From IMG/VR virus record IMGVR_UViG_3300017782_000041, positions 1 to 44,203 of that record: DNA of 44,203 nt. One strand, written 5' to 3'. Source of the DNA: a virus. The translations under genes and the position numbers were made by a program. Shown here piece after piece: positions 6,218 through 43,674 of the stretch. The stretch's first letter is position 1, and every line of letters begins with the position of its first letter. The notes under the pieces are model-generated. The model was not told the origin of the DNA and did not search any database. It was given only the letters and a program-made list of their open reading frames with translations.

Positions 6218-8125
6218 TTAGTTATTCTGCACCGAAGTGTTCAATTTATTGAGTGCTGCTACGTTGGCGGAACTTGCTTCTTTGATTGCAGCTGTGTTTT
6301 CATATTGCGACTCTACCATCGGTCCGAAATTTATTCCTGCTATGGCCTCTGCAATATCATTTTTTAAACTAGTAGCACCACCGCCTGTGAAATAATCTAA
6401 TACCCCACCGGCTTGTATTCTGTCTAAGCCTGCAAACGCAGCATCTGCATTTACTGGCGCATTTTGGTTACCTGTGAGTCCTAGTGCTGCAGAACCCGGT
6501 GTAGGCTCGAAACCAGCAATTCTAGCCGCGCCTTGAGCAGTATCAAGAGTGCCTCTTGCTACACCAATTGTTGTGTTTGCTAAAGTTTGTAATAATGCTG
6601 GTGCAATATCTGTGTTATACAATCCAATTAATGTGCTTGCAAAATCTGAACTAAGTGATCTAAATGCCAAATCCATGTTATTAAGTGTTTTAGTTGTATT
6701 GCCTGCTACTGTACCAAAGTTTGTGAGATCATCATTGAGTTCACCTAATACATTTTCAACTACATCTCCAAGCACTTTCATATTATATTCAAAGCCTTTT
6801 TCGATACTTTCAGTGGTAGCACCAATAAATCTACCTTGTCCACCAGCCAAAGCAAGTTGAGCAACCTGTGATTGCATATCGACATCAGCCGCAATTGCTG
6901 CGCGATTTTGATCTACTAGACGCTGTGCTTGTAATGTAGCATTACCTACATACTGCATGTTATCGCCTGCAAGTCCTAATGATCTCACTAGAGGTTCGAG
7001 TGTATTAGTCAAACCTTGATTGGCCATCATCTGCATAGCACCTGCTTCAGTGGTAACACTGCCAAACACAGCAATTTCTTTGATTGCTGTGGCAATTTGT
7101 GGATATGCAGCCACAAGATTATTGATTTCATCTTTGTTTTTAGCATTTAGTCCGTTAAGACTAGCCTGCAGAACCATGTCTTGTCTTGCAGCTCTCTGCT
7201 TATCACGTTCTTGTTCTAGTGTAGTACCATTGATTGCCGCAAGTGCTTTTTGCTGTACAACCTGTTGTCTAATTGCCATGCTCAAACTACCGGTATCGTA
7301 TCTAAATTTATCAATACCTTCTCCTGCTAGTGTGAGAGTACCTAAAAATTCTGCGGTACGACTGCCCATGTCTTCAAAATTTAAACCCAATCTAAGCAAA
7401 TCTGATCCTTGTGTGTTAATAAGATCAGCATTTTGTGCCATAAATTCTAAGGCTCCAACTCTTGTTTGTCCAGCAAATCTAGCAAAATCATTGCCTTGTC
7501 TTTTGAGTATACTGTTAAATTCGGTCATGCTTAGTCCTGCAGTAACCGCTGCAGTTCTAAATGCAACCATATCTCCGCCTAGCAATGCACCTGCTTGCTG
7601 TGATTCTCTGAACGCTTTTCCCATTTCATTTAAATCACCGAACAAACCACCGCCTATGAACGCTGCAGTATCTAAAAATCCTTTGACAACTGCACCCATA
7701 GCACTTGTAACGTTACCATCTAGTTGATCTAATAAACCGCCGCTGCCAGTTACATAATTTTTTAAACCGCCAAACATTGAATTAATGGTTTCTAAAGGCC
7801 CGGTTGCGGCTGCTCTAGTGATACCCTGTATATCATTCAATGATCTTGAATAGCGAATCTGTGCCTTTCTAATCTCATTACCACTTGATTTAATTGCACT
7901 ACTTGCATCAGACAATGAACCGCTTGCTTGCAGGCCAGAACTAGAAAGGCTTCTAAGCGAACTACCTGCTTTATTAGCACCTGCCGCTAGTGTGCCCATC
8001 CCTGCACCGCCGCCGGCGCCGCCGTCTTGACCTTGAATAGCCGCGAGAATACGCTGCATGGTCTGTTCTTCAGCAAAACCATTTGCGTCTATGTACCCGA
8101 TTCCAGGAACTTCAATGCTGGGCAA
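6218..8125 (-). CDS. Putative tail tape-measure protein (gp29 position)
   Basis: 635 residues from a TTG start at 8125-8123, chosen because GGAGA lies 7 bases upstream. An in-frame ATG at 8173 would overlap a late promoter and has no ribosome site. The protein begins as PSIEVPGIGYIDAN, then a Gly/Ala/Ser-rich stretch. It continues as a long, mostly helical, Ala/Gln/Leu-rich protein with few aromatic residues, including small hydrophobic Gly-rich stretches (AAFIGGGLFGDL) like those in tape-measure proteins. T4 gp29 is of similar length (about 590 residues). It sits next to the hub genes gp26 and gp51, as in T4. The role, setting tail length and passing DNA, is inferred from composition and position; I see no diagnostic motif. 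Confidence 0.6.
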   Translation of the reverse strand: MPSIEVPGIGYIDANGFAEEQTMQRILAAIQGQDGGAGGGAGMGTLAAGANKAGSSLRSLSSSGLQASGSLSDASSAIKSSGNEIRKAQIRYSRSLNDIQGITRAAATGPLETINSMFGGLKNYVTGSGGLLDQLDGNVTSAMGAVVKGFLDTAAFIGGGLFGDLNEMGKAFRESQQAGALLGGDMVAFRTAAVTAGLSMTEFNSILKRQGNDFARFAGQTRVGALEFMAQNADLINTQGSDLLRLGLNFEDMGSRTAEFLGTLTLAGEGIDKFRYDTGSLSMAIRQQVVQQKALAAINGTTLEQERDKQRAARQDMVLQASLNGLNAKNKDEINNLVAAYPQIATAIKEIAVFGSVTTEAGAMQMMANQGLTNTLEPLVRSLGLAGDNMQYVGNATLQAQRLVDQNRAAIAADVDMQSQVAQLALAGGQGRFIGATTESIEKGFEYNMKVLGDVVENVLGELNDDLTNFGTVAGNTTKTLNNMDLAFRSLSSDFASTLIGLYNTDIAPALLQTLANTTIGVARGTLDTAQGAARIAGFEPTPGSAALGLTGNQNAPVNADAAFAGLDRIQAGGVLDYFTGGGATSLKNDIAEAIAGINFGPMVESQYENTAAIKEASSANVAALNKLNTSVQNN

Positions 8126-8150
8126 GAAAAAATCTCCAATTATATGCGTA

Positions 8151-8158
8151 TATAAATA
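8151..8158 (+). promoter_or_regulatory. T4-like late promoter for gp26-gp51
   Basis: Exact TATAAATA, 44 bases before the gp26 ATG. It is embedded in the near-palindrome GTATAT-AA-ATATAC (8148-8161). Confidence 0.75.
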
Positions 8159-8172
8159 TACACATAGTATCA

Positions 8173-8180
8173 TATTTATA
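8173..8180 (-). promoter_or_regulatory. T4-like late promoter for the tape-measure-like gene
   Basis: Exact TATAAATA on the minus strand, 47 bases upstream of the TTG start at 8125. It is divergent from the plus-strand late core at 8151-8158. The two cores face inward and the transcripts would overlap for about 20 bases. Confidence 0.75.
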
Positions 8181-10161: not shown

Positions 10162-10335
10162 TTACATATTGTTCTTCTTTTCCTGAATCTCAGCGCGGCG
10201 TGCCTTGCTAAGTTTACCAATTTCGCCTAGTGCTTTACGAGCGCGAGTTGCTGCGGCTTTAACACCTTTTTCTTCGAATGCTGCATGCTCTTTCAAGTAT
10301 GCTTCGTATTGTTCTACAATTTGTTCATGTGACAT
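10162..10335 (-). CDS. Small basic histone-H1-like protein
   Basis: 57 residues starting MSHEQIVEQYEAYL, with an acidic/aromatic N-terminal half and a strongly basic C-terminal half (VKAAATRARKALGEIGKLSK followed by ARRAEIQEKK). The Lys/Arg/Ala-rich helical pattern resembles the short Hc1/H1-like proteins found in many marine myoviruses, which are thought to bind DNA. A near-ideal ribosome site, AGGAG, lies 7 bases upstream and sits in the gap after gp46, so it is probably made from the gp46 transcript. A 7-bp inverted repeat (10152-10169) with a four-base loop covers its stop codon. DNA binding is inferred from charge and family resemblance, not shown. Confidence 0.7.
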   Translation of the reverse strand: MSHEQIVEQYEAYLKEHAAFEEKGVKAAATRARKALGEIGKLSKARRAEIQEKKNNM

Positions 10336-10345
10336 TTTATGTCTC

Positions 10346-12109
10346 CTATACTAGTTCTACGTCCGTGTCGTAACTAGTAAACCCGTTTTCTTTGATAACT
10401 TTGAGGACATTGTTCACACGTCCAATAAGTTCATCTTTGTGGCTTACTAACCAAACACTTTTGTTTCTTTCTCTGCTCATGCGCTTTAGTACACCCATGG
10501 CGTTTTCTACACCTGCTGAATCCATTCCGCTGTCTACTAGTTCGTCGATAAACAACAGGTTAATAGGTTGATATAAACTTTCCCAAACATCGCGGAATGC
10601 CCAACTAAGACTTAGTATAAGTCTATTACGTTCACCCCTGCTTAGATTGTCAAAGTCCAAATCTCTTCCTAATTCTTGTATTTCTACTGTTAGATCATTC
10701 TGGAATACCACTGTATGTGGCAGTCCAACTGCACCTAAGTATCCTTCCAATCTTGTATTTAAGTATGCAAGGTTCTGATCAATAATACGTTTTCTTATGA
10801 AACTATCTTTGTTAGTTAGCAGTTTAAGTAAAAACTCTTGGTGATTCTGCACACGAGTAAGTTCGTTGATTGTATCCCAGGTAACTTCCTGCACTGCAGT
10901 AGTTTCCATGTCTGCTATTTGATCTGTGTAAGGGTCACTTTCATCTTGCTTACTTTGTAGTTGTGACTCCAATGTGGATAGGCTTGAACGATGGTTGTGT
11001 GCATCAGTGGCGCTATCATAGAAAGTTCGTGGTTTACTCGGGACTGTTTCTTGCTGAGTTTTGAGCTCTGCAATTGCTGTCTGTAGTTCTGTAAGGAAAT
11101 TATTTGCTTCGTCATGTTCCTTCTCCGCTTTTTCAATCTCTTGTTTGTGACTGTCCAAGTGTGTAATGCTTTGATTACAACTATGACACACACCATCTTG
11201 CCAGCCTACTAGAGCCTTGTTTGCTTTTTTAACATCGCGCTCTGCTCTGCCTTCTTGTGCCTGCAGTGCAGCAATGTCTTTTTGTAGTTGAACTTGTGCA
11301 TTGTTTAGTGTGTTCCAGTCTGCAAGTTCAGTGTGCGCTCTAAGTTCAGCATCAATGTTAACATGACTGAGATCATTGATTGCTGTTTTAAAATTAGCAA
11401 TGTCCTGATCTTTTTTATCTTGCCACATACGCTGTCTGCGCTTGAGTGCTTCAACTTGTTCTACAATCTTGCCATTAGCATCTTCAACTGCTTTGATACG
11501 AAACTCTTCTTCTTGAATCTTGTTCTTAGTTACACGCACCATCTCTTTGAGATTTTCTGCTTTCTCGCTGAGAATAGTAATACCTAGCAATTGTTCAATG
11601 ATAGCACGTTGATCATTAGTGCGCATGCTTAAAAACGGCTCGCTGTATGTGTTTAGTGCAAGCACATGTTTAAACATATCATGCGACATACCTAACAGTT
11701 CTTCAATGGCTTTTTGTGTTTCTCTGCTATCGCCTTGTGCATTGTCGTCTGTTTCTTGTTCGTTGTTGTTGATGTAGAACTTTAGTACATTAGGTTTGCG
11801 TCCACGTTCAATACGATATGCTAATCCATCCTTTTCAAATTCAACTGTGACCAACATGTTTTTACTATTGGTCTTGTTGATCAAGTTATCCTTGCGAATG
11901 TTTGTAAGTGCGTTACCATACAGTGCATAACTTAGCGCATTGATAATAGTTGTCTTGCCAGTGCCATTTCTACTACCAGCATCTCCTCCGCCTGTGTCTA
12001 AGTTTTCTCCTAGCACAAGTGTAAGATCATTGCGGTTAAAGTCAATGGCTTGTGTGGTATTGCCCACGCTCATAAAGTTTTTTACTGTAAGTGTATCTAA
12101 TTTGAACAT
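10346..12109 (-). CDS. 46: Recombination endonuclease subunit gp46 (Rad50/SbcC-like ATPase)
   Basis: 587 residues with all hallmarks of an SMC/Rad50 ATPase. Walker A is GSRNGTGKT (45-53). A long coiled-coil region is interrupted by a zinc-hook motif CHSC (C308, C311). The ABC signature is LSRGERNRL, Walker B is NLLFIDELVD, and the switch His is in VWLVSHKDE. With gp47 it forms the T4-type complex that resects broken DNA ends and supports recombination-dependent replication and host DNA breakdown. The gene lies 12 bases downstream of gp47, but a sigma-70-like promoter in the end of gp47 places the predicted transcript start at the ATG itself. No ribosome site is visible, consistent with leaderless translation. 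Confidence 0.95.
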   Translation of the reverse strand: MFKLDTLTVKNFMSVGNTTQAIDFNRNDLTLVLGENLDTGGGDAGSRNGTGKTTIINALSYALYGNALTNIRKDNLINKTNSKNMLVTVEFEKDGLAYRIERGRKPNVLKFYINNNEQETDDNAQGDSRETQKAIEELLGMSHDMFKHVLALNTYSEPFLSMRTNDQRAIIEQLLGITILSEKAENLKEMVRVTKNKIQEEEFRIKAVEDANGKIVEQVEALKRRQRMWQDKKDQDIANFKTAINDLSHVNIDAELRAHTELADWNTLNNAQVQLQKDIAALQAQEGRAERDVKKANKALVGWQDGVCHSCNQSITHLDSHKQEIEKAEKEHDEANNFLTELQTAIAELKTQQETVPSKPRTFYDSATDAHNHRSSLSTLESQLQSKQDESDPYTDQIADMETTAVQEVTWDTINELTRVQNHQEFLLKLLTNKDSFIRKRIIDQNLAYLNTRLEGYLGAVGLPHTVVFQNDLTVEIQELGRDLDFDNLSRGERNRLILSLSWAFRDVWESLYQPINLLFIDELVDSGMDSAGVENAMGVLKRMSRERNKSVWLVSHKDELIGRVNNVLKVIKENGFTSYDTDVELV

Positions 12110-12115
12110 GTTTTT

Positions 12116-12144
12116 ATTATACTATAAGTTTCTGTAAATGTCTA
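12116..12144 (-). promoter_or_regulatory. Sigma-70-type promoter for gp46
   Basis: On the minus strand: TAGACA (12144-12139), a 17-base spacer, TATAAT (12121-12116), then 6 bases (AAAAAC) to the gp46 ATG. The -35 differs from TTGACA at one base. The expected start point coincides with the start codon. Confidence 0.65.
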
Positions 12145-13132
12145 ACATTAGGTTAGTGTCGTATTGTTGGCTGTCGATCTGTTGCAGTTGACTGGTAACA
12201 ATAGTGTCCACACTCTCAAAGTTGATCTCACCTGAGATTTGCATGTCCATGTCTTCAACCTTTACTGGGATCAAACTCATTTCTCTGAGTTGATACTCAT
12301 CCATAAAAGTTTCTTTAATAAAGTTTGCTTCTTCGTAACTGATGTCTACATCTAAGTTTACGCGAGCATAAGTTTTAGGACCTAAATATTTTTCAGGACC
12401 TTCTAGCAATTGACTGATCTTTAGCATACGATACTTAGGTTGCTCTGGCCAGGCAATGTATTCTCTAGTGCCATCCCAATCCAGTAACATCATGCCTCTG
12501 TCATCATCCCAAGCATCACTGTAGTTGTGAGGAAAAGCGTTGCCTGTGTATACAACGTTTTCCTTTTCTTGTCGTTTGTGAAAATGTCCTGTAAACACAG
12601 TGCCGCAACGACCAAAGTCCCCGGCGTTTAATTCGCCGTGATCGGGCATTTGTACCATAGCATTCATGTAAAAGTGCGGAAGTTCAAAGTGTCCTATAAC
12701 ATAGTCAGCAGTAACTTTACGCATTTGTTTGTGTTCTTCACCAACTAGCCAAGGAATAAATGCAACACCATCTACAGTTGTGATGTCATTGTAGAACTGT
12801 ATATTTTCAAACTTTTTAATAAACGCAATGCTGTTATAGTCACGTTTGTCGCGATAGTATTCGTCATGATTGCCTGGTATAAAATGCACAGTATCGAATG
12901 TTGTGTTTAACAGTTCCAGTGCTTGTATGCTGTAATTTAGCGTAGCAACATTGATACTTGCACGTTGATGATGCCAATCGCCCATAAAGATGCAAGTCTC
13001 TGCGCCCTGTCTCTTTGCTTCGTTACAAAACCATGTTACAAAGTCAAGGCAGTCGCGATTAAACGTTTGGCTATTACTTTTGTTGCCAAAGTGAATATCC
13101 GTGAATACGGCGGCCCGTTTGAACAAACTCAT
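12122..13132 (-). CDS. 47: Recombination endonuclease subunit gp47 (Mre11/SbcD-like phosphoesterase)
   Basis: 336 residues from the ATG at 13132-13130. The metallophosphoesterase motifs occur in order: FTDIHFG (D12, H14), GDWHHQ, PGNHDEYY, IGHFE and TGHFHKRQ, which together bind two metal ions. It is the nuclease partner of gp46. An upstream in-frame TTG (13168) overlapping the gp55 stop was rejected because the 12 extra codons coincide with a consensus sigma-70 promoter and the conserved N-terminus begins at MSLFKRAAVFTD. There is no Shine-Dalgarno sequence before the chosen ATG. The gene follows gp55 and precedes gp46, forming an early/middle recombination block. Confidence 0.95.
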   Translation of the reverse strand: MSLFKRAAVFTDIHFGNKSNSQTFNRDCLDFVTWFCNEAKRQGAETCIFMGDWHHQRASINVATLNYSIQALELLNTTFDTVHFIPGNHDEYYRDKRDYNSIAFIKKFENIQFYNDITTVDGVAFIPWLVGEEHKQMRKVTADYVIGHFELPHFYMNAMVQMPDHGELNAGDFGRCGTVFTGHFHKRQEKENVVYTGNAFPHNYSDAWDDDRGMMLLDWDGTREYIAWPEQPKYRMLKISQLLEGPEKYLGPKTYARVNLDVDISYEEANFIKETFMDEYQLREMSLIPVKVEDMDMQISGEINFESVDTIVTSQLQQIDSQQYDTNLMLDIYRNL

Positions 13133-13138
13133 TATATA

Positions 13139-13168
13139 ATTATAGTGTATCCATGCAGTTGTTGTCAA
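13139..13168 (-). promoter_or_regulatory. Consensus sigma-70-type promoter for gp47
   Basis: On the minus strand: a perfect TTGACA (13168-13163), an 18-base spacer and a perfect TATAAT (13144-13139), then 6 bases (TATATA) to the ATG at 13132. The -35 box overlaps the gp55 stop codon. The predicted mRNA would be leaderless. Confidence 0.75.
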
Positions 13169-13995
13169 GAAGTAGTTTTAGTATCCGGCCATTCTTTTTG
13201 CATTTGAATTTCATTTTCGGTTTGCCTAGTATAACTTGGGTTCAATCCAGCATGTTCTAGTATATCGTCTCTGATTGATTGATTCTTCTTTTCCAAGTTA
13301 AGTACACGAGTAAAACTGTTTGTGATTGCCGCAGTGTAGTATGCAAATGGATTTTCACTTTTGCTTTCATCAAACTGTAGACCAATCTGTGTAAGTTGCA
13401 ACAGTGCTTGAGCTCTCATTTCGTCGTTGTATGTGTATCCGCGCCAATTACTGCGAGTACCGTAACGTTCGCACAATTTCATATACATGCGAGCAAGTTT
13501 GTTTGTAGTCTTTCCATGACTTTTACTAAAGTTTCCATTTTCTAGTCCACCGTCCCAATGACTCTTACCAACACAAATTAATTCATCTTGGTCGTTGTAT
13601 CTGTAATGCTGGAATGGCGGAAAGTTACACTGTACATGATGATCTGCTACAGTCTTTGGATTTTTTTTACGTCCTGGGTGCAGAGGAATATGATCATGTG
13701 TCATAACACGAAACACTATCTCTGTTTTATGAATTTTTTTCCAATCCATCGCAAAGTCTGCTTGTTTTACTTTTTCTCCGCGCTCTCTTGCTAGTTCGTA
13801 GTTTTGTTTTTGTATACGATCTGCTTGATTACGTTTTGCTTGTGCAATAGTTCTAATATTGATTTTATCTACGTTTGGTAAGATGATGTCATATCTATCA
13901 TCTCCGTCACTAACAAAACTACTGTATGTGTTTTTACTTAGATGTATTTCTTTCAACAAATCGCGATTGTTGAGATAGTTTCTCCGTTTAATCAT
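13165..13995 (-). CDS. 55: Late-transcription sigma factor gp55
   Basis: 276 residues. The N-terminal motif RRNYLNNRDLLKEIHLSK and the later sigma-region-2-like segment (NKLARMYMKLCERYGTRSNW followed by RGYTYNDEMRAQALLQL) match gp55 proteins of marine T4-like phages, which are longer than T4 gp55 (185 residues) through an insert between these parts. gp55 replaces the host sigma factor and directs RNA polymerase to late promoters with the core TATAAATA; such motifs precede the structural genes here. The ATG has AGGAA 8 bases upstream and a sigma-70-type promoter at 14023-14051. That promoter overlaps the late promoter of the divergent tail operon, so gp55 may repress itself. Confidence 0.9.
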   Translation of the reverse strand: MIKRRNYLNNRDLLKEIHLSKNTYSSFVSDGDDRYDIILPNVDKINIRTIAQAKRNQADRIQKQNYELARERGEKVKQADFAMDWKKIHKTEIVFRVMTHDHIPLHPGRKKNPKTVADHHVQCNFPPFQHYRYNDQDELICVGKSHWDGGLENGNFSKSHGKTTNKLARMYMKLCERYGTRSNWRGYTYNDEMRAQALLQLTQIGLQFDESKSENPFAYYTAAITNSFTRVLNLEKKNQSIRDDILEHAGLNPSYTRQTENEIQMQKEWPDTKTTS

Positions 13996-14022: not shown

Positions 14023-14051
14023 ATTATACAGCCTATAAATATACTTATCAA
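14023..14051 (-). promoter_or_regulatory. Sigma-70-type promoter for gp55
   Basis: On the minus strand: TTGATA (14051-14046), a 17-base spacer, TATAAT (14028-14023). It leaves a 27-base leader with a normal ribosome site. The spacer contains the opposite-strand late core at 14034-14041. Confidence 0.65.
14034..14041 (+). promoter_or_regulatory. T4-like late promoter for the gp48-gp53-hub operon
   Basis: Exact TATAAATA, 33 bases before the gp48-like ATG. Downstream, TTATCAA (14045-14051) and TTGATAA (14068-14074) form an inverted repeat that would present the ribosome site AAGGA (14062-14066) in its loop. Confidence 0.75.
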
Positions 14052-20733: not shown

Positions 20734-21111
20734 ATGGCAGTAGCAACTTACAAAGGTTTCAGTACAGTTAACAATACTTTCGGTACTGTAAAACTTACAG
20801 ACACAGACTTAATTAAAAGAGATTTACTTAATCATTTTGCAATTCGCAAAGGCGAAAAACTAATGAATGGTAATTTTGGCACAAGCCTGCGAGATTTAAT
20901 CATGGATCCTTTAACAGAGCAAACAAAACAGGTTATAGTTCAAGAAGTAAATGATGTTATTGATAACGATCCTCGAGTAGTGCCAGAAAATGTACTGATA
21001 GATGAATTTGATAAAGGCATTCTCATTGAAATGACTCTGCGATATCAGATAACCAATCAAGTTGAAACACTGCAAATACGTTTTGACAGATCAGACGACA
21101 CTATATCATAA
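20734..21111 (+). CDS. 25: Baseplate wedge subunit gp25
   Basis: 125 residues, near the T4 length (132). The gp25 family, which includes the type VI secretion protein TssE, is recognisable from LIKRDLLNHFAIRKGEKLMN, then GTSLRDLIMDPLTE and a C-terminal strand region ending in VETLQIRFDR. gp25 lies at the inner end of the wedge and is required for sheath assembly to start. It is preceded by gp5 and followed by gp6, a partner in the wedge. The gene has a good ribosome site (AAGGA). The 63 bases to gp6 contain a strong hairpin with a late promoter. Confidence 0.92.
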   Translation: MAVATYKGFSTVNNTFGTVKLTDTDLIKRDLLNHFAIRKGEKLMNGNFGTSLRDLIMDPLTEQTKQVIVQEVNDVIDNDPRVVPENVLIDEFDKGILIEMTLRYQITNQVETLQIRFDRSDDTIS

Positions 21112-24100: not shown

Positions 24101-24792
24101 CTGTTAAGCCAAGTACAAATGAATTGCGAGATCAATATGGCAGTTTGGAACAATACAAAAGCGTGAGTGATACTATTATTTTTAACAGTGTGTCTTACAG
24201 ACCTTTGTTTGGTGATAAAGCCGAAGAAGAATTACAAGCCAGTTTTAAAGTTGTAAAAAATGATAGCACACTTGTAAGTGATAGTGAAATCAAAGAAAAA
24301 GTTATTGTGGCAATTAACAATTATTTTAATATAGAAAATTGGGATTTTGGAGATACATTTTACTTTAGTGAACTAAGTGCTTATCTCTATAACGCATTAA
24401 GTCCTAATGTTCTTAGCATTGTTATTGTTCCTAAACTAGAAACTAGTAACTTTGGAAGTTTATTCCAAATCCAAAGTCAAAGAGAAGAAATATTGATCAG
24501 CGCGGCAACAGTGAATGATGTAGAAGTTATTGATGTAATCACTGCAAATAGTTTACAAGCAAGTGGCAATGTTGTCAACACTACAACTACTAACTTGGCA
24601 ACAGAAAGTGCAAGTGCAAGTGGTGCAAGTACTACAGTAAATACTGCAGTCAATACAGGTTCATCTACTACTACAAGTTATAGTAGCAGTGGTAGCAGCA
24701 GTTCAGGCAGTTCTAGCAGTAGTAGTTCAAGCAGCTCTGGCGGTAGTAGTTCAAGCGGCTCTGGTAGCAGCGGTGGGGGGTACGGTTACTAA
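21175..24792 (+). CDS. 6: Baseplate wedge subunit gp6, long form with Ser-rich tail
   Basis: 1205 residues, almost twice T4 gp6 (660). The N-terminal block is diagnostic of marine gp6: EDWKKVYETFREADFQSYDY, then YVALIDLISFLGQSLSFRSD, then LNARENFLETAERRDSILRL. The core wedge region RENDQISLVFGDDVF-type (here NDQISLVFGDDVFSNIPVG) follows near residue 340. gp6 dimers form the inner ring of the baseplate. The last ~45 residues are almost only Ser and Gly (1163-1205), a flexible tail ending in GGGYGY. The stop codon overlaps the start of the giant gene (TAATG), next to a run of six G. The ATG has the ribosome site AGGA 10 bases upstream, inside the hairpin described above. Confidence 0.92.
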   Translation: MAASTRQSNLFAAEDWKKVYETFREADFQSYDYETIRKSMVEYIRNYYPEDFNDFIESSEYVALIDLISFLGQSLSFRSDLNARENFLETAERRDSILRLARMLNYYPKRQQIARGLLKVISVRTTESITDSNQNSLRDQDIEWADITNSDFLEQFTAIINSALVSTQKYGNPALKTTVGGVSIEEYQIKLQNNTIPIYDFQSTVGAQNLDFELVKGTYSGTDFLYEVAPIPGSTFNIQYRNDNRGFNSADNGFFVYFKQGSLQSADFDITEKLPNRVVDIDINNIDNNDVWLYKLNDQGREETRWEKVPAITGNNVIYNSLSNQNKDLFTVRSRANDQISLVFGDDVFSNIPVGNYRVYFRTGAGTTYKISPADMKNITVSIPYISHANQLENLTLTLSLQRTVANASARESLRDVKIKAQQQYYTQDRMITGEDYQILPYTKFNNVLKAKAINRTASGISRYLDVRDTTGKYSSTNIVAEDGILYRTEDIQQFQFTFITKSDINNIVSTQVERNILKNSSLHFYYKNYGGIDVTNLNASWNLTTTVSGSCTGYFKNDVDSPLKIGDFSSSNLKYAKVGALAKFTAPSGKVFDVNNNLIDGTSGTINTRDFIWTSLSAVVTDGTNQGVGNLDTGFGPVTLSEVIPQDAVLNQIIANWNTTISPSVRTAMIDAISEFKTFGLRFDRDTQAWTIINSLDLDQSNTFSLVYAGNTSNTGLDNSWFFKFTNDGSTYTVNFRDTSYIFESKLETRFYFDNDLKIFDPRTGKTIRDKINILKVNSLPDSNSSLAVDYSMQVDDVITETDGYTLTNRIKVTFPDSDSDGIVDNPEVFDIVVAPEVNTSTKVVFYQTSTSSGGYLTYTPVDSISVEQRYTTQAAINEVLAQFGSGQVFYASADDRFYILTISGANVKSIAQTTDYIKRTGRSNILFQYTHNSPNNRRIDPSPSNIIDMFILTSQYNTDYRNYITDITGSVLKPVKPSTNELRDQYGSLEQYKSVSDTIIFNSVSYRPLFGDKAEEELQASFKVVKNDSTLVSDSEIKEKVIVAINNYFNIENWDFGDTFYFSELSAYLYNALSPNVLSIVIVPKLETSNFGSLFQIQSQREEILISAATVNDVEVIDVITANSLQASGNVVNTTTTNLATESASASGASTTVNTAVNTGSSTTTSYSSSGSSSSGSSSSSSSSSSGGSSSSGSGSSGGGYGY

Positions 24793-27700
24793 TGGCACTT
24801 CGTAAAAGTAAAGTCTTACTACCGGATTTATTCCAAACTAATAAGAATTCAAAGTTTCTTAATGCAACTGTAGATCAATTAATTAGCGAACCTAATCTAC
24901 AAAGAATTAACGGTTATATTGGCAGACAATCTGCTAAAAACTTTACTGTAGGCGATAGTTATATCTCAGAAATAGACAATGATAGACAAAACTATCAACT
25001 AGAACCTGCTGTTGTGTATAGAGGACCAGATAAAAGTATTCAACATCTAACAGGGTATCAAGACTTTATTGCAAAACTTAGATACAATAATGTTGATGTG
25101 CTCAACCACAGTGATTTATTCAATCAAGAATATTACAATTACAGTGGATTTGTTGATCTAGATAAACTAATAAATTATGGTGAATACTTTTGGTTGCCTG
25201 CAGGCCCAGATAGTGTGCAAGTTTTCAATAACATTGTAGATAAGGAAAAAGACTACACAGTATTCAGAGACGGCACTACTTATAGACAGGTAGGTTTAGA
25301 TGAAGTAGCATATGACGCAGGCAAATATGACGAAACTACAAGTGATATTGCAACAGGAGATGCTATCTATAGATTTGATAGTGCAACAGCAGATCCAAAT
25401 CCTACACTAATATTAGCTCGTGGCGGCACTTACACTTTCAAAGTAGTACAGCCTGGAATTCCTTTTTGGATTCAAACTGAACCTGGTACTAGTGGTGTAA
25501 CTGGGTATAGCAAAAATACTAGCACCAGAGAAGTAGTAGGAGTCACAAACAATGGTGCCGATGATGGCACTGTTACATTTATTGTGCCAGAAGCAGATGC
25601 GCAAAATGATAAAATCAATGCTGTGCAAAGTGCAAATCCTGATTTTGCTACAACACTAACCTACAAACAAATTCACAATGTGCCATTGCAGAATATACTA
25701 GATGAATATGATGGCATAGATGGTCAGACAGAAATTGACGGCAAAAGCCTAGTGTTTATCAACACCACAAATGATGAAACAGCATGGGATCAAGGTGCAT
25801 TGTTTGATGCATACGGTTTCGACGATCCTGATCATCCTTTTGACCAACGCACAACTTTGCCCATGGATACTCGTTATGATGTTTATGCAATTGAAGTTAA
25901 AAATGTTGGAGGAACAAACATTGTACAATTAAGACGTGACAGTGATTGGCCCGTTGCTACTAAAGTAAAAATTAAACAAGGTAATAATTATGGCAACAGA
26001 GAATTTTACAAAGATGCTAATGGATTGCCTGAAATTATTAAACCTTATACTGCAGGCATAGACACATTATATTACCAAGATGGACAGGATGCAAATAGAT
26101 TTGGCAGAATTAAACTTGTTGAAATTGACACTGTTAGTCCAATTGATGTTATTGATGACATTATAGGCAAGCAATCTTACACTAGCAACAATGGTGTGAA
26201 GTTAACCAATGGTTTAAAGATTGAGTTTAACAGTGATGCAACACCTAGCACCTATGCAGATAAAGAATTTTATGTAGAAGGTGTAGGGCAACCAGCAGGT
26301 ATAGATTTGGTGCCAGTGCATGAAATGCTTACTCCTGAAACTTATACAGTGAGTACTAGTGATGGTTACGATACAGTGGCTTATGACAGCGGCGGTTTTG
26401 ATGGCACTCTTAATGCGCCAACCACACAAGACTATATTATTATTAATCGTAGTAGCCCAGATAGAAATGCATGGAGTAGAGGCAATCGTTGGTTCCACAG
26501 AGAAGTAATTGAAGCCACTGCAACTTACAATGGTTATACTGCAACTATAGATGATAATAGTAGAGCAAAGCGTCCTATTATTGAATTTAACAGAGGCTTA
26601 GACTTGTTTAACATGGGAATAAGCAGTGTGGCTCCTGTCACTGTGATAGATTCTACACAAACAGATGCTCTCAGTAACGTTAACGGCACAGCAGGTTACT
26701 TTGCCGACGGTATTGATATTCAACAGGATAACACTGTAATTTTTAGTTCAGACACCGATGCAGATGTTAGAACAAAAATTTATCGTGTTGACTTTATAGA
26801 TCAAGATAGTAGCATTAGTACAAATGAAATTATTAACCTTGTGGAGATTGGCACAGTAGTTGATGGCAACTGTGTGTTGAGTACACTAGGTGCAAATAAT
26901 CAAGGCAAGCAGTTTTGGTTAGATGATACCACGTGGAAAACTGCACAACAAAAAACAAAAATTAATCAAGATCCTTTATTTGATGTGTTTGATCCGGATC
27001 ATACAAGTTTCAGTAATCAAACAAAATATCCTAGTAGTAACTTTGTTGGAAACAAGTTGTTTAGTTACAAGAGAAACAACAATGTAAGTCCAGATACTAT
27101 ACTTAATTTTGGTTTAAGTTATCAAAACTTTAGCCAAATTGGTGATATTGTTTTTGAAAATAACTTCGACAAAGAAACATTCCAATACACAAGAGTAGAA
27201 GGTAACGTAGATGTTATCATTAGAAGTGGTCATGTGCATGGCTTTGACAGAGATGGCAATCGTACACTTGTAAATGGTTGGACTAAAATAATTGAACCTA
27301 GTGTACAATATCAAATTGTAAAGCACGATGTTGACAGCGAACTTTATAGTTTTGAAATTGGTGCACCAGTTGATACTACAAAAGTAAGACAACCTTTACA
27401 AGTTTTTGTAAACGGAGATTTTATAAGCCCAACTGAATATACTCATTTAATTCAATCATATCGTGAATATGTGGTTTTCAAACAACCAAGATCCCTTAAT
27501 GATACAATTACTATAAAATTTTTTAGTGCCACAAAGGCAGCAAATAGTTTTTATACAGTACCGGATAACTTAGAAAACAACGCAGGTAATGCTACGTTTG
27601 GAAGCCTTACACTAGGACAACTTAGAAATCATACTATTGAAATTACTAACCAAATCAGACCTTTCGTGGGAGAGGCTCCAGGTAAAAGTAACCTCAGAGA

Positions 27701-30700
27701 CTTGAATTATAGAGCATATAAAGGAAAAATACTTCAGCACAGTGCAGGTATGATTTTACCAAGTTATGTTATAAACAGTGAAATAGCAGATGTAGTTAGT
27801 AGTATTAACTATGTTAAAAATGAGTACACAAAATTTAAAAATAATTTTATTCAAACTTTAGAAACAACAGATTTAGATTTAACAAATCCTGCTAAATGTG
27901 TAGATGATATTTTAGAAAATATGAATAACAAAAAGACCAGTGTATTTCCTTTTTACTACAGTGATATGTTGCCATATGGAAATCAAAAAACACAACTGGT
28001 ATATACCATTGATGACATCACAGAAACAGAATTTGAATTTAGATCACAGTTTGATTTAACAAGTATTAGTAATAGAGCAGTATTGGTTTATCATAACAAC
28101 AATCTGTTGTTAGAAGGACGCGATTATACTTTTGATACCACAGAAGCAAAAGTAGTGCTTACAACCTCTGGTGGCGCTGGCCTTTCAAACATTGGTATAG
28201 CAATCAACGATACAATTACAATTGTAGAGTACAGTGACACAGATGGTAGTTTTGCTCCACCAACACCAACCAAGTTAGGACTTTACAACAAATTTATTCC
28301 GCGTAAGTACACAGATAATACTTATAAAACTCCTAAACAAGTAGTGCTTGGACATGATGGTAGTATTTGGGTCGGATACGGAGATATCCGCGATGATATA
28401 ATATTTGAATTAGAAAAAAGAATCTATAATAATATTAAAACTCAATACAACAGAGACTTGTTTGATTTCAGTAATGTAATCCCAGGATATTATCGTAGTA
28501 CCATAGAAAATTTTGCTGAAGCAAATAATATTACAAGAAGTTACTTTGGCGAATGGAGTTTGCGTAATAGAGTTAAAATACAAACTAATACACTAAGCAC
28601 AAGCGACGATTTGTTTAGTTGGAACTATAGAAATAGTGTAAACAAATTAGATGGAAGTAGAGTGCCTGGGTATTGGAGAGGCATGTACAAATGGGTTTAT
28701 GACACAGATACTCCGCACACAACACCGTGGGAAATGCTTGGAGTAACTGTAAAACCAACTTGGTGGGATGATCGTTACGGCGAAGCACCTTATACATTTG
28801 GTAATACAGTGCTTTGGGAAGATTTGCGTGATGGTAAACTATACAATGATGCAGTAGGCACAGACTTTACAACATTGGTTAGATATCAACGCCCAACGCT
28901 TATGGATATTATCCCTGTAACCGAACAAGGCGAACTTAAAGCACCGGCAGACTTTCTAGTAAGAGATGCTTTTAGCACTAACATAAATTCGCAGTGGGCA
29001 TATAGCGATCAAAGTCCAGGTGAAACTGCTTGGAGACGCAGTAGTGAGTTTCCTTTTGTTATGCAAATACTTGCGGCAAATATATTGCCTGCTCAGTACT
29101 GTACATTGATGTTTGATACCAATCTCTATGCAAATGACAGCGAATATGATCAAATATTACAAAAAGGAAAAAGTTATAGACCAGGTATAGCAGACTTTCA
29201 CATGCATGGTATGGTGCACACAGGTCAAACTGATATAATGAGAGTAGAAGGATATAATCAATTTATTTCAGAATATGTTAAACATAATGGCTTTACAGTA
29301 AATGCTATTATCAATGAAATAAACAACCTAGAACTTAATCTTTGCTATGGTATGGCAGGCTTTACCGATAAAAATTACATTAAAGTAGTTGCTGAAAGTG
29401 TAAGCCCAGGCAGTAGTAGTGAAAATATTTTTATTCCAGACGAAGACTTAACAATCTACACTAAGAAAAGCGCACCTTTAGAACGTGTTGTCTATAGTGG
29501 CGTGCAGATTATAAAACGCACAGACGGATACGAGATACAAGGGTATGACATTGAAAACCCATTTTTCAAAATTATTCCAAGTGTTCAAAACAATGAACTT
29601 AATCAGCGTACTCTTGCTGATTTAACATTTATAGAATACAAAGGCTTTGAAAGTAGAATAATTAACATACCATACGGTACCATTATTACAACTCCTCAAC
29701 AAGTGTTTGACTTTTTAGTAGGTTATCAAAGATATCTAGTAAGTAGAGGATTTGTGTTTAATCAAACTAACGAAGATGGACAGGCTTTCGATTTTGTAAA
29801 CGCAGGCATGGAATATGCATTTTGGTTGCAACAAGGTTGGAGCACAGACAGTGTGTTTGTTATAAGTCCTTGTTTTGATAAACTAACTATTAACAGACAG
29901 TATACCACAGTTGATAACATCCAGCGTGTGGGAAAAATAAAAGATGCAAACGCTGGTATTATAAAGACTGAATTTTATGATGTTAGTAGAATAGATAACC
30001 AAGTTGAAATCAGCGTAGATATAGAAAATACTCAGTTATACAGTGTGCAAGTAGATCCTGTACAACACGAGCATGTTCTTGTTTTCAACAATAAAACTAT
30101 TTTCAATGACGTAATTTATCAGCCTGAGCTAGGAAACAGACAGGAAAGACTTAAACTTATTGGATCGAGAAGTGGAGATTGGAATGGCACACTACATGCT
30201 CCTGGATTCTTCTTAAGTGATGATGCAATAAATGTTTGGCAGAGTTATGTTGATTATAGAAAAGGTGATATTGTAAGTTATCAAAACGTAGTATATGTAG
30301 CAAAAGTAAGCCACAGTGGCACACAAGTATTTGATTACAATCAATGGTTAGTTGCTGATAAAATTTCTACCGGGATGCTAAAAAATCTTACTACAAAAGC
30401 CAATCAGTTTAAAGACTTTTTCGATCTAGATAGTTTGAATCTCGAAGATGGAGTGGACAAACTAGGCAAAGGTATAATTGGATTCAACAACAAAGATTAT
30501 CTGCAGGGTCTTAATTTGGATGATGTCAGTCAAGTTAAATTTTATCAAGGACTGATTACACAAAAAGGCACAGGTAGCGCAATTAATAAATTAATTGATG
30601 CTGAACTCACAAACTTGGATCAAGAGATTGATTATTTTGAAGAGTGGGCTTTCCGTGTAGGCGAATATGGAAGTATAGATAGTAATCAAATTATAGAAAC

Positions 30701-33700
30701 AATCATTCCAGAACAAGATGCTGCAAACAATCCGTTCTTATTACATTTTCATGCAGACGGGGATAAGCCAGCAACAGATAATGGCATTTCAGGGCACTTG
30801 CATGTTCAAGGAAAAGATCTTTTCAAACGTCCAAATAACTATAACGGCAATGTATTTGGTGTTAGAAATGCAAACAGTCTGACGCTTAACGATTTGGATA
30901 GCGCAGGTTATGCAAGATTAGATGATGTTGATTTTACACTTTTTAATGGCGATCAACTTGAAACACTAAGCACAAGAATTAATGAACTTGGTAAAGGCAA
31001 AAAGATATGGTTTGCAACAGATGATACAAATACCTGGGGCATGCGTCGCATTGATGAAATGCTTAGTACAATTACTGATGTACAAAGCACAACAAACGGA
31101 TTTTTAATCTATACAACAGATCGCAATCACGGACTTGTTGAAAATGATTATGTTATTGTGCGCTCTGCAGCACCAATTGGAAGAGTTGCAAAAGTACACA
31201 GTGTAGAAAGTCCAAGTAAGTTTGCAATAAAACTTACAAGTGCGGCATTTGATATTGCGCTATCCGATGTAAGAATCCCAATGTACAAATTAAGCAGTGT
31301 ACGATTTAGTCAAGCAAGTGATATTTTTACATTTACTCCAGTAAGCGGCTGGGATAACCAGGAACTGGTATGGGTTGACAAAAACAAATCCGGAGATTGG
31401 GAAGTCCTGCAAAATACTAAGCCATGGTCTAGTACAGGCACGAAAACACAAAGTCCTATTAATGCGTTAGATAAATTTGGAACAGGTTTAGCAATTAACA
31501 GAGAAGGCACTCTCGCTGTTGCTGGTGCACCTGATTCAGGAACAGGTTTAATAATTCCTTATGTGCGCAGTGAATCTGGTCCACTTGCAGAAGGCAACAG
31601 TGTAAGCACTGCAACAATTGGTGATAGCGTAAATGGATTTGGCTTTAGCGTAGGAGTAGGAAACGACTATGTTGCAGTAGGTGCGCCCGAAACACAAAGT
31701 AGTGCTGGTGCAGTATTTGTATACTATGTGGATAGTGCTGGAACGTTCAACAAAAGACCTGCTATAAGACCTTCGGATGTTACTATTGGTGATCAATTTG
31801 GTTATAGTTTGACAATGAGCGGCAATGGAAGACATTTATTTGTAGGTGCGCCAGGCGGTAACAAAATATATGCATATGCACTTGTGGATATCGCATCAAC
31901 TAGTGAGCGTAGTTTCACAGTTACCACAGGTGGCGGTGCATCCTATACGTTAGATTTCACTCCCATTAATATACAAGCGTTAAATGTAACAGATGAAAAT
32001 GGCAAGGTATATCTGCCAAACAAAGACTTTACACTGAGTAGTGCCGATATCACATTTACAAGTACTCCTTCAAGTGGACTAGATATTGTTATAAGACAAC
32101 AAGATTATTTTGTACAAGTAGCGGCATTTGCAGGGCATGACACAATGCCAGGAGATAAGTTTGGTTTTGATGTAGATACTGATTACTACGGAAGATACAT
32201 TGTAGTAGGTGCACCGGATGCCGCAGTAGCAAATAGTGATAGTACTGTACTTTCTCAAGCAGGCGAAGCATATGTTTTTGCACAAACAGTTGAACGCTTT
32301 ATAGCAGACGGAACAAGCAAATCATTTACCACAGCAGATACACTACAAACAAAAATCTTTGTTGAAGTAGATGATGTGCTACAAATTGAAACAGATAATA
32401 CAGATGTACCTACAGATAATGAAGGTAGCACAGATGGATTTTATACACGCACTTCAAACACAATTACATTCAAAACTACTCCTATCGCAGGTAGTAAAAT
32501 TGTAGTATACACAGGTAGTTTCAGTGAAAAACAAAAGTTGGATCAAAACATTGTTGGAGAAACAATTGCAACTGAAGAACAATTTGGTAAAAGTGTTAGT
32601 ATAGATACTAATGGTACAATGGTTGCAATTGGCACACCAGGTGAAGATGAAACTAATCCTAACACAGGTAGTGTGTTTATATTCCAAGACAGCGGAAAGA
32701 ATTATGGAACAGTAACTTCAAATGCTACCCATAGTCAGACTGCCGGCGATGTGTTTTACATTAACGACTATAAGATTACTGTAGGAGAAACCGGTAGTAA
32801 CCCAACAGGCATTGCCTCTGATATTAACCTAGCAAATATTCCAGGAGTATCAGCAAGTGTCAACAGTAGCGGACAAATTGTAATTTCAACTACAGAAACG
32901 TTAGAAAATAACAGACTTACTGTTAATCCTGGATCAGGTCAATTGTTCCAAAGAGATAAAGTGTTCCAGCCTTTTGTAAACACACAAAAAATTAATCATC
33001 CAAATGCATTTGAAAACGAGAATTTTGGCAACAAGGTAATGTTTGACAAACATTTTGGAGTTGGGGTTGATGCTCAACCTGGAACACGCAATCTAGTAAT
33101 TGCAAGTGACAGAGCAAGCACACTGCTAGGTGTTGGATTTGATATTGACACTAATAGTAACAGCGAAAGTTATTTAGAAGCAATAACAAGTTTTGATCAA
33201 AAAGGTACAACGTTTACTGATAAGAGAACACAAAGTGGTGCTGCATATGTATACGAACTTTTAGATGCAAACTCTCCAACTATTTCAAATCCACATATGT
33301 TAGTGTTTGGTCAACAACTAAAGAGCACTAACATACAAGATTTAGATGAATTTGGTGGAGCGATAGCATTTAGCGACAACAGAATTATAGTTGGTGCGCC
33401 TGGAGATACAACTACCAGTGGATCAAACACTTACGAAAATAGTGGTAGTATCTATGAGTTTAACAACAATGACAGAACAAGTGCTTGGCGTGTATATCGT
33501 AATCAGGAAAACAGAGTTGATGTTAATTTAATCAATAGAGTAGCACTATACAACAAAAAGTCTGGTGAAATTAGTGTATTCTTAGATTACATTGATCCAG
33601 CAAAAGGTAAAATTGCAGGTATAGCGCAAAGCGAATTAACTTATGTTACTCATAATGATCCAGCAATGTACAACAATTGGAATCAAAAACAGGAATATAG

Positions 33701-36700
33701 ATTATGGTGGGATACAAGCACAGTACATTATTTAAATGCTGAACAAGGTGATTTAGATTTTAGAACAAACTATTGGGGTGTAACTTTCCCTGGAAGTAGT
33801 ATTGATGTATATGAATGGATAATGAGTGATGTGCCGCCGGAACAATACACAGGCGCAGGCACTGTCAAAGATATTACAAAGTTTGCTACTGTTGAAGTAT
33901 TTGATAGCACACTGCAAGATACTAAAGTGCGTTATTTCTTTTGGGTAAAAGGACGCATTAGTGTTCCTAGAGAAGCAGAATTTAGAAACATAAGTGCAGA
34001 TAGTGTAACAAAAATAATTGAAAATCCAAAAGCTCAAGGCATTCCTTATCTAGCATTTTTTGATACAGATGCGGTAGCACTATACAACTGCAAGTCCTAC
34101 TTTAAAGACAGCGATGTTGTATTAAGCATTAATTACGATGTGGTAAAAAATGAAGGTGTTTTACACAGTGAATTTGAATTGTTTGGTAAAGGAAATACAG
34201 ATCAAAATATTCCAACAAGAATGTATAACAAACTTGTTGACAGTCTAGCAGGAAGCGACAGTGTTGGAAATCTTGTTCCGGATCCTTATCTAAGTGACGT
34301 AGAAAAATATGGTGTATTAACTCAGCCAAGACAAGGACTTTTTGTAAATCGTGCAGCGGCTATAAAAGTAATGACACAGTATTGTAACAATGTGTTCGCT
34401 ACTGCGCCTTTTGCTAGATTTAGTAATTTATCTACACTGTTTGGTAGTGAGCCTTTACCTACAGTAGACAGTGGCGAATATGATACAAAAGTAAACACAG
34501 TACAAGAAAGAGATTTCTTGAACACTGCAATTTTAACCACCGGGTACAAGGTACTAGTTCTCGAAGATGAAAATAACAATGATTACTGGAGTGTTTATAC
34601 ACTACAGAGTGATAGTTCATGGTTACTTACAAATATTCAAGGATACAATACTGCAGATTATTGGAACTATACAACGTATTACGCATCTGGATATGATGAG
34701 ACAACAGTGCCTAAATACCAGGTCACTTTAGAAGCAGATCTGCTATCACTGTTAGATGCTGAACAAGGCGATATTGCTAAAGTTACAAGCAATGATGAGG
34801 GTAACTTTAGTATGTTTGTAAAAAATGCTGAAGTTGATTCGTGGACTGAAGTAATTATAGAAAGAGGCACAATTCAACTAAGTGACAATCTTTATGATTT
34901 TTCTAAATCGAATGTTAATTTTGAAAGCACAGGTTTTGATAACGGTGGTTTTGATTTTAGTGCATTTGATAAAGTCCCGTCAGATGAAATTAGACAAATT
35001 ATTACAGCAATTAAAAATGAAATTTTTGTTGATACATATAAAATTAACATGAATGAAATGTTCTTCCGTTTAGTAGAATACGCACTAAACGAAACAACAT
35101 TCACTGAAGATTGGGTATTTAAAACTTCATTTATTACTGTGGCACATAAAATCCGTAGCCTAGATCAATATAGCACATTTAAATTTGATAACACAACTTT
35201 CATTGAAAATTTCATTGAAGAAGTAAAGCCTTATAAAACAAAAATACGTGAATATGTCAGCAAGTACGATAAACTTGATACCTATGACAGTGATACCACA
35301 GATTTTGACATTCATGCATTTTATGACGAAACAAATCAATATTTCCGCAAACCTAGTGGAGAATATGTCGGAGATGAAATTTTAAGAACGCAAGGATTAA
35401 ATCAACCTTGGAGTGAAAATTACGGCTACAAACTAGACAATATTGTAATTGTTAATGCAGGAACTGGATATTTAGATGATCCTACAATAACAATAAGTGC
35501 GCCTCAACTAGTTGGTGGTGTGCAAGCAACTGCAACTGCAAAAACCAATGGTAGCTCTATTGTTAGTGTAAGTGTTACTAACAAAGGTAGTGGGTATACA
35601 AGTAATCCTACAATAACTATTGCAGGCAGTGGTAGTGATTTAAAACTAAGTCCTAGATTGCTCAACGAAACAATTAGAGGTTTTGATAGCACAATTAAAT
35701 TTGATCGTATTAGTTACTCTAGTAACATAAAAGATTGGACAGCAAACACTGCTTATTCAACAGGTGATGTAATTGCATATCAAAATACAGTTACAAAAAC
35801 ACAAGAAGTATACACTGCACAGAGTAATTTCACAAGCGGCGCTACTTTTAGTGTAGAGGATGCTAACGGATTTACAGTACTTGAAGTTGCTCTTGACGAA
35901 GACTTTACAAATAGCGCAGATAGAATTGCTGCTTACTATTATCCAACTAGTGGAATGATTGGAGATGATCTAGAACTATTGCAGAGAGGCACAGGATACT
36001 TAGGTAACAAAGTCAGTGGTGCAGGATTTGATCAAAATCCAGGATTTGATAGCAGTAACTTTGACACTATTGCATTTGATAATTTTGAAATAGACAGCGA
36101 TGGCCTTGCAGTTCTTGCTGGACTAGATACAAATATTAGCAGTCTGTTTACTGATATAGAATTAGGTACACGACCTGAGGACATTAATGTTGATGGCGCT
36201 GGATTTGTTGACACCTATAATAGCCATGCGCCTGAAGAGCTAATTCCAGGTAGAGTATATGATACACTAGATATGGAAGTGTATACACATGCAAGTAACG
36301 ATTATGAAAAAGATGGAAACTCACCTGACATTCGCTACACTAGTTATACGGACACAACAGCAAGTAAAGTAGATTTTCAATTTGGTGATCCTACAAAGAG
36401 TTCAGATGATTTTATATACTTGATTGTATATAAAAATTCTGAAAGAGTTTATAACTTTACAGTTGATTATGAAAGCAAAGAAGTTGTACTCAGTTCGCCA
36501 CTAACAGCAACAGACATTTTACACATATATGCATATGGCGTTACAGGTGAAAAACTTGTAGGTGAATACACCTATCAAGGTGATGGATCAACTACAGCGT
36601 TTGTATTAAGTAACGTTCAAACTCTTACACAACAAGCACTAGTATTTGTTGACGGTGTAGAAACTACTACTACAATTGGATCACAGGACAACAGAAGTTT

Positions 36701-43293: not shown

Positions 43294-43322
43294 TTGACAG
43301 GCGCTTAGGCGCCTGTTATAAT
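43294..43322 (+). promoter_or_regulatory. Consensus sigma-70-type promoter with a palindromic spacer
   Basis: TTGACA (43294-43299), a 17-base spacer, TATAAT (43317-43322), then 7 bases to the ATG at 43330. ACAGGCGC (43297-43304) and GCGCCTGT (43309-43316) form a perfect 8-bp inverted repeat with a TTAG loop that fills the spacer. This may be an operator, or a terminator for the late operon overlapping an early promoter. Confidence 0.75.
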
Positions 43323-43329
43323 ATCAAGT

Positions 43330-43674
43330 ATGGAAAATCTAGAATCATATGCTCGCGAAAGATTCGAGCTCAACCGACAAAAACAGACTCTAAAAGAGCA
43401 ACAACAGCAACGGCTCACTGTTACATATAATGGTGGGCTATTCCGTGTGAATATGACACTACTTAACTATTTGTATATGAAAAATGCAAATGCAGGCTTG
43501 TTTAGTCAAAGCACTAAATGTATCTTACCAGATAGTTATGATACACCTATTGAAATTGATTGTATTGAACTTTTAAAAATATGCGAACAGCGGTGGAACG
43601 AAGTATACAATGACTGGTACAACGAATATCAAGAACTAAAAACCAAACGTAAAGCAGGTGACGTTGAAGTCTAA
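43330..43674 (+). CDS. Small hypothetical protein, early-type promoter
   Basis: 114 residues, rich in Gln, Glu, Lys, Tyr and Asn. The first ~30 residues (ESYARERFELNRQKQTLKEQ) are likely a charged helix or short coiled coil. The rest includes VTYNGGLFRVNMTLLNYLYM and a helical C-terminus (WNEVYNDWYNEYQELK). I do not recognise a family. It is driven by a consensus sigma-70-type promoter whose predicted start point is at or next to the ATG; no ribosome site is seen, so translation may be leaderless. The next gene starts inside its last codons. The early-type promoter suggests a role before or apart from particle assembly, despite lying after the tail genes. Confidence 0.7.
   Translation: MENLESYARERFELNRQKQTLKEQQQQRLTVTYNGGLFRVNMTLLNYLYMKNANAGLFSQSTKCILPDSYDTPIEIDCIELLKICEQRWNEVYNDWYNEYQELKTKRKAGDVEV

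Follow-up and report, generated by a model that had tools for sequence, protein, structure and literature searches.

We propose that, in a large T4-like phage lineage, sigma-70-type promoters place the transcription start (+1) on the A of the ATG start codon at a selected class of genes, which would be expressed from leaderless mRNAs. We hold this reading with high confidence, and it rests on the sequence of the promoters, their spacing from the start codon, the conservation and enrichment of that spacing, the absence of Shine-Dalgarno (SD) motifs, and a signature of a pyrimidine at -1 and an A at +1. The DNA analyzed (hereafter the window) comprises a virus record of 44,203 bases, and its gene content, including T4-like genes for the portal protein gp20, baseplate proteins, a gp55-like late sigma factor, gp47, and gp46, identifies it as a fragment of a large T4-like phage. 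Throughout, d denotes the number of bases between a promoter box and the start codon.

Three genes of the window show this arrangement (Table 1). At gp47, on the minus strand, TTGACA (13168-13163), which overlaps the TGA stop of the gp55-like gene, is followed by an 18-base spacer, TATAAT (13144-13139), TATATA, and the ATG (13132-13130), so that the start codon lies 6 bases past the -10 box, at the predicted +1; with 12 of 12 matches, this promoter ranked first in its region in a promoter scan. At gp46, on the same strand, TAGACA (12144-12139), located within the gp47 coding sequence, is followed by a 17-base spacer, TATAAT (12121-12116), AAAAAC, and the ATG at 12109. The third case, a plus-strand gene starting at 43330, has TTGACA (43294-43299), a 17-base spacer, TATAAT (43317-43322), ATCAAGT, and the ATG. 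These layouts had been claimed in a first-pass annotation as TTGACA-18-TATAAT-6-ATG, TAGACA-17-TATAAT-6-ATG, and TTGACA-17-TATAAT-7-ATG, and on direct reading all of the spacings proved exact. So did its claim that the gp47 and gp46 start codons lack a ribosome site: no SD-like AGGA, GGAG, or GAGG lies upstream of either, nor is there an SD-like motif upstream of the 43330 gene. Such motifs precede 61% of the genes in the window. The gp55-like gene, the upstream neighbor of gp47, provides a contrast within the window, since it has a sigma-70-type promoter yet an ordinary leader, and its own start is preceded by the SD motif AAGGAA.

Table 1 Features of the window discussed in the text
Feature	Coordinates	Strand	Basis
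gp46, SbcC-like ATPase subunit, 587 aa, ATG 6 bases after -10	10346..12109	-	phrog_77 E=4e-105
gp46 promoter-like TAGACA-17-TATAAT	12116..12144	-	promoter scan, 11/12 matches
gp47, SbcD-like nuclease subunit, 336 aa	12122..13132	-	phrog_100 E=3e-64; Metallophos; start conserved
gp47 promoter TTGACA-18-TATAAT	13139..13168	-	sequence; promoter scan
gp55-like late sigma factor gene	13165..13995	-	phrog_12791 'sigma factor for late transcription' E=5e-82
gp55-like gene promoter, sigma-70-type TTGATA-17-TATAAT, leadered (contrast case)	14023..14051	-	promoter scan and sequence
gp25-like baseplate wedge gene, leadered here (late box at spacing 17 and SD)	20734..21111	+	late-box scan
43330 gene promoter TTGACA-17-TATAAT	43294..43322	+	sequence
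43330 gene, 114 aa, function unknown, ATG 7 bases after -10	43330..43674	+	relatives' alignment

The spacing is conserved among relatives of gp47, for which a scan of viral contigs yielded 80 loci, mostly 54-61% identical. In these relatives the ATG is preceded, at exactly 6 bases, by a TANNNT box, and a TTGAC-like box usually stands 16-18 bases above it; the spacing is conserved where the letters of the spacer vary freely. When the loci were grouped into 35 clusters (sequences below 90% identity), a -10-like box occurred at d = 6 in 20 of them, whereas each of the remaining distances between 0 and 39 had 0-7. Most of the clusters outside the d = 6 group carry an SD, and several of these SD-type relatives keep the promoter, with the -10 box ~14-16 bases upstream and AGGAG filling the gap. 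Leaderless-type and SD-type gp47 genes alternate repeatedly on a tree of the family: counting these two states alone gives 7 changes, and with a third, unclear group added, at least 8 changes of the leaderless label and at least 5 of the SD label are required by well-supported branches. In one relative, L011, the box directly adjoins the first of two ATGs and is separated by 6 bases from the second, a layout which suggests, on the sequence alone, that the spacing is what is kept.

The L011 layout also bears on whether the start codons were mis-called, with true starts lying downstream behind a leader and an SD, as remains possible for some automatically called members of the class. For the window genes this has almost nothing to recommend it: the N-termini of gp47, gp46, and the 43330 gene align with those of their homologues from residue 1-3, and starting at the next ATG would delete conserved N-terminal sequence from each. 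Because the starts agree with those of homologues, mis-called ATGs at gp47 and gp46 are very unlikely, and homology rules them out for all three genes. We regard gp47 as a firm case of promoter-ATG fusion.

The 43330 gene is an equally firm case. The arrangement TTGACA-17-TATAAT/TATACT-6/7-ATG is kept in 11 of 12 further loci in which the start is covered, and some of these relatives have a spacing of 6 from -10 box to ATG in place of the 7 found in the window, which would put +1 either on the A or one base upstream. An RNA hairpin at 43295-43318 (predicted fold -18 kcal/mol, z -5.9) spans the -35 box and spacer of this promoter. Its stem shows compensatory changes in relatives (GGCGC/GCGCC to GGACC/GGTCC), with UUCG or UACG loops in several, and we infer that it probably doubles as the terminator of the upstream structural genes. 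A -35 box within a terminator loop was rejected as a shared design, as TTGACA was not enriched in terminator-like hairpins (81 occurrences, against a mean of 86 for scrambled hexamers); single examples were seen in G017 and G009.

We then asked how general the spacing is, using a genome-wide set of 15 related contigs of 78-354 kb and the window (16 contigs, 2190 ATG genes). Genes were called by a codon-usage script blind to promoters; the first caller had set the gp47 start too late, and the rule for gene starts was loosened ahead of the counts, again with no regard to promoters. Exact TATAAT occurred at d = 5, 6, and 7 in 15, 20, and 6 genes, compared with 0-7 at each of d = 0-4 and 8-18, and no spacing peak after TATAAT was found at internal ATGs of the 16 contigs. 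Of the 46 near-consensus -10 boxes at d = 6, 37 had at least a 4/6 match to TTGACA 16-18 bp upstream and 27 had at least 5/6; among the boxes at d = 8-18 (5-33 per position) the corresponding numbers were 1-8 and 0-3. From about d = 19, a distance that leaves room for an SD in the leader, promoters were frequent once more. The genome-wide enrichment that the first-pass annotation had set as its test was also found without any gene calls: open ATGs after a good promoter numbered 39 at d = 6, where the positions d = 8-18 averaged 4.3 (Poisson P 3e-24). In the same 16 contigs, GTG, TTG, and CTG showed no peak at d = 6 after sigma-70-type promoters. In total, 49 sigma-70-class genes were observed where a Markov model predicted 8, so the suggestion, made from three genes, of a class of this design holds as a sharp class across the related contigs; these counts include orthologues, and several come from gp47 alone.

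Bacterial transcription usually starts with a pyrimidine at -1 and a purine at +1. Among 30 non-redundant class genes, 27 have a pyrimidine at -1, compared with about 11 at each of -2 and -3, and this signature is independent support for placing +1 on the A of the ATG.

Chance matches in AT-rich phage DNA would be an alternative explanation, and at first sight the window allows it: its G+C content is 38%, and at a loose cut-off promoter-like matches across the region are no more frequent than expected from shuffles (15 versus 17.3). The three fusions among 23 window genes have a P of ~8e-5 under a first-order Markov model, a post hoc value, the pattern having been picked after it was seen. It is the position-specific enrichment, the conservation, and the control phages, of lower G+C content and without the peak, that reduce this explanation to a formality and effectively rule it out. 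The same script found no sigma-70 peak at d = 6 in T4, 121Q (320 kb), PA5oct, or SCTP-2 (400 kb). A single case at d = 7 was seen in PA5oct, where an exonuclease gene at 158242 has the layout TTGACA-17-TATAAT-7-ATG; its start matches the deposited annotation, and its homologue in G008 has the box at d = 6. Selection on the promoter-to-start spacing remains our reading of the class. As a separate observation, neighboring short genes at L218:5915-6444 and L217 (G017 196719-206735) have near-identical upstream sequences, TTGTCC-17-TATAATAACAGC-ATG, as if they were duplicated promoter-start cassettes.

gp46 is less well supported. The SbcC-like ATPase and the SbcD-like phosphoesterase are encoded together, as expected of the gp46/gp47 recombination nuclease, and the first-pass annotation had remarked on separate promoters for the two subunits of one complex; both boxes are present in the window, but that of gp46 is poorly conserved in relatives. 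TATAAT-6-ATG is kept at gp46 in the window, G001/L112, and L102, with a weak -35 match in the relatives. In G001 the gene preceding gp46 is not gp47, and the box therefore travels with gp46. Across 55 gp46 clusters, only 5 have a near-consensus box at d = 6, and d = 5 and d = 8 are about as common, which does not support gp46 as an equally conserved leaderless gene. Some of the boxes lie among the codons for the gp47 C terminus, and the start of gp46 runs into the gp47 stop (ATGA or TAATG) in the majority of relatives. Because conservation is weak and stop overlap usual, a separate gp46 promoter is a trait of few relatives and not a rule. We count gp46 as a probable case of promoter-ATG fusion, less well supported than gp47 and the 43330 gene. 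Two further observations concern this locus. A 57-aa small protein encoded at 10162-10335, adjoining gp46, matches the histone H1-like family Hc1. In L020, L050, and L053, past the gp47 stop, the gp46 frame closes after ~11 codons at a common AACAGGTAA or AATAGGTAA site, as if interrupted by an intron or insertion.

The usual overlap of gp46 with the gp47 stop and the weak conservation of its own promoter are what one would expect if the promoters were real and the proteins were nevertheless made mainly from a longer gp55-gp47-gp46 RNA by translational coupling or re-initiation, the closeness of promoter and ATG reflecting mere compaction. The three genes are co-directional with tiny gaps, and the gp55-like gene has its own leadered promoter (14051-14023) and SD. 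Compaction does not, however, predict that the spacing should be exactly 6, that boxes with a supporting -35 should be scarce at d = 8-18, that ATG alone should be preferred, or that -1 should be a pyrimidine, and most members of the class elsewhere lie outside this operon. We consider this account unlikely and continue to favor transcription starting on the ATG itself.

We extended the spacing test to late promoters because TAAATA had been noticed upstream of structural genes in the window. Among the 2190 genes, TAAATA occurs at d = 4, 5, 6, and 7 in 24, 54, 12, and 10 cases, compared with 1-6 at each of d = 8-15, beyond which comes a broad peak of leadered boxes at d = 16-24. No other non-SD hexamer, whatever its position, is as enriched as TAAATA at d = 5. 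A pyrimidine occupies -1 in 52 of the 54 genes with TAAATA-5-ATG, none of the 90 late-class genes at d = 4-6 has an SD within an 11-base SD window, and the peak is found at ATG only among start codons. Examples are L233:11561-12688 (tail tube), L291:2029-3192, and L273:18621-19613, and the members scanned include tail tube, virion, and head proteins and homing endonucleases. This class outnumbers the sigma-70 class. These may be T4-type late promoters: the TAAATA core and a gp55 homologue are present, and the first two letters of the TATAAATA-like box are loose. In T4, the late box precedes the start site by about one helical turn (PMC2988020), a distance that for d = 5 would place +1 at the ATG or immediately beside it.

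The window itself contains no late leaderless gene at a spacing of 4-7, and G001, G002, and G010, which are closely related to it, have 0-2; since all four have almost none, the late class is a property of the wider lineage. The gp25-like family is leaderless-late in 9 of the 17 members found, and other members, including that of the window, are leadered with an SD. Among the control phages, TAAATA at d = 4-5 was absent from T4 and 121Q and present twice in PA5oct and 8 times in SCTP-2. In the latter, a Salicola phage, TAAATA-5-ATG occurs at the genes starting at 24140, 121682, 192035, 227258, 259184, 284198, 310042, and 380921. A late box, GGTAAATAC, on the minus strand upstream of 6218-8173 ends 10 bases before the ATG with no SD, and may represent a very short leader.

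Very short leaders might also be the general case, with transcription starting 1-3 bases upstream of the ATG or being shifted by a phage-modified polymerase, and a minority of genes do have spacings of 5-8 (7 at the 43330 gene, 8 at some gp46, and 5 at some relatives of gp47). The modal spacings of the two boxes (6 for TATAAT and 5 for TAAATA) both put +1 on the A with a pyrimidine at -1, and we regard such an offset as improbable. A start on the A of the ATG is thus the reading we carry forward for both promoter types.

The first-pass annotation had called the genes early. Ten of 30 sigma-70-class genes scanned had their best PHROG match in DNA, RNA, and nucleotide metabolism (among them thymidylate synthase twice, primase twice, DnaB helicase, exonucleases, an endonuclease, and a homing endonuclease), and none had a structural best match; among 30 random genes from the same contigs, two had a nucleic-acid-metabolism best match (both homing endonucleases) and three a virion or connector one. 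The samples are small (30 vs 30). Early timing of the sigma-70 class, as inferred from gene content, would fit these replication, nuclease, and nucleotide-metabolism functions, but as a description of the design "early" is too narrow, the larger late-promoter class of the relatives having it too.

We envisage that host RNA polymerase with sigma-70 would start on the A of the ATG at replication and nucleotide-metabolism genes, early in infection, and that polymerase carrying the phage gp55-like sigma would use TAAATA-5-ATG at the structural and homing-endonuclease genes of the relatives, dependence on gp55 being inferred. The resulting RNA would begin with AUG, without a leader, and would be translated by direct recognition of the 5'-terminal AUG and not by SD pairing; the capacity of the host for such initiation is unknown. 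Without mapped RNA ends, the actual 5' ends, the timing, initiation on the 5'-terminal AUG, and promoter activity in vivo all remain inferences. Because the geometry is the same at sigma-70-type and late promoters, leaderless mRNAs are predicted under both early and late promoters. We lean, by no more than a little, toward the broader proposal that fusing promoter to start codon is a general option under host-type and gp55-type sigma factors, keeping a subset of mRNAs leaderless throughout infection and bypassing SD-dependent initiation, which would possibly be an advantage when the normal initiation of the host is limiting. Relatives were present in only three metagenome-assembled bins (Pelagibacter, a betaproteobacterium, and Porticoccaceae); these may be binning artefacts, and we assign no host from them.

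Elements of this arrangement are known from cellular genomes. In TA-led genes (Zheng et al. 2011, PMC3160421), as here, a TANNNT box ~12 bases before the start codon replaces the SD, and the lineage fits that description, with TANNNT at a fixed short distance above random expectation; TA-led genes were described in cellular genomes, whereas here a phage lineage is involved, mostly with a -35 box and with an additional T4-type late class. The -10-adjacent ORFs of Deinococcus-Thermus (2025, PMC12340547) likewise have a -10 box a few bases before the ORF, and the spacing requirement was tested there, but in that phylum the -10 box works without a -35 box, which is only an enhancer, whereas 37 of the 46 boxes at d = 6 here have a recognizable one; the text of that paper does not mention phages. 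Caulobacter, with 375 leaderless mRNAs (PMC4117421), provides a further cellular counterpart.

Among phages, lambda cI is a model leaderless mRNA, with a 5' AUG translated without an SD, and a review describes direct recognition of the 5'-terminal AUG for such messages (PMC9031893). Kasugamycin is reported to spare leaderless mRNAs (PMC5230787). Lambda cI and other leaderless phage mRNAs are isolated genes, in contrast to the lineage-wide class described here, which includes replication and structural genes. The paper on phage AR9 states that phage transcripts "are often leaderless", but the AR9 leaders themselves are 26-491 nt (PMC5312081). The late class resembles the gp55/gp33-dependent late promoters of T4 (PMC2988020) in having a TATA box about one turn upstream and no -35 box, and the window has a gp55-like gene; T4, however, has no ATG peak at a spacing of 4-6 after TAAATA, where this lineage has a strong one. 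In the open-access literature searched, we came across no phage lineage described as having a class of start codons fused to early and to late promoters alike, nor, in a search mostly of that literature, a direct report of leaderless classes in jumbo phages or cyanophages. Leaderless mRNAs and -10-adjacent ORFs are thus already known; for a lineage-wide phage rule we found no report in the literature searched.

Leaderless phage mRNAs have so far been known mostly as single cases, such as lambda cI. This lineage appears to switch, gene by gene and relative by relative, between a promoter followed by a leader and SD and a promoter fused to the ATG, and orthologues such as gp47 and the gp25-like gene offer natural paired comparisons for why leaders are gained or lost. 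As promoters and start codons are mutually predictable in these genomes, the pattern would improve the annotation of gene starts. The cultured phages SCTP-2, with its late boxes, and PA5oct, with its one exonuclease gene, have a few such genes and would allow the idea to be examined first in culture. Finally, a single open frame of 4441 residues occupies positions 24792-38117 of the window; it has relatives in most of the contigs, reaching 5394 residues in G011.
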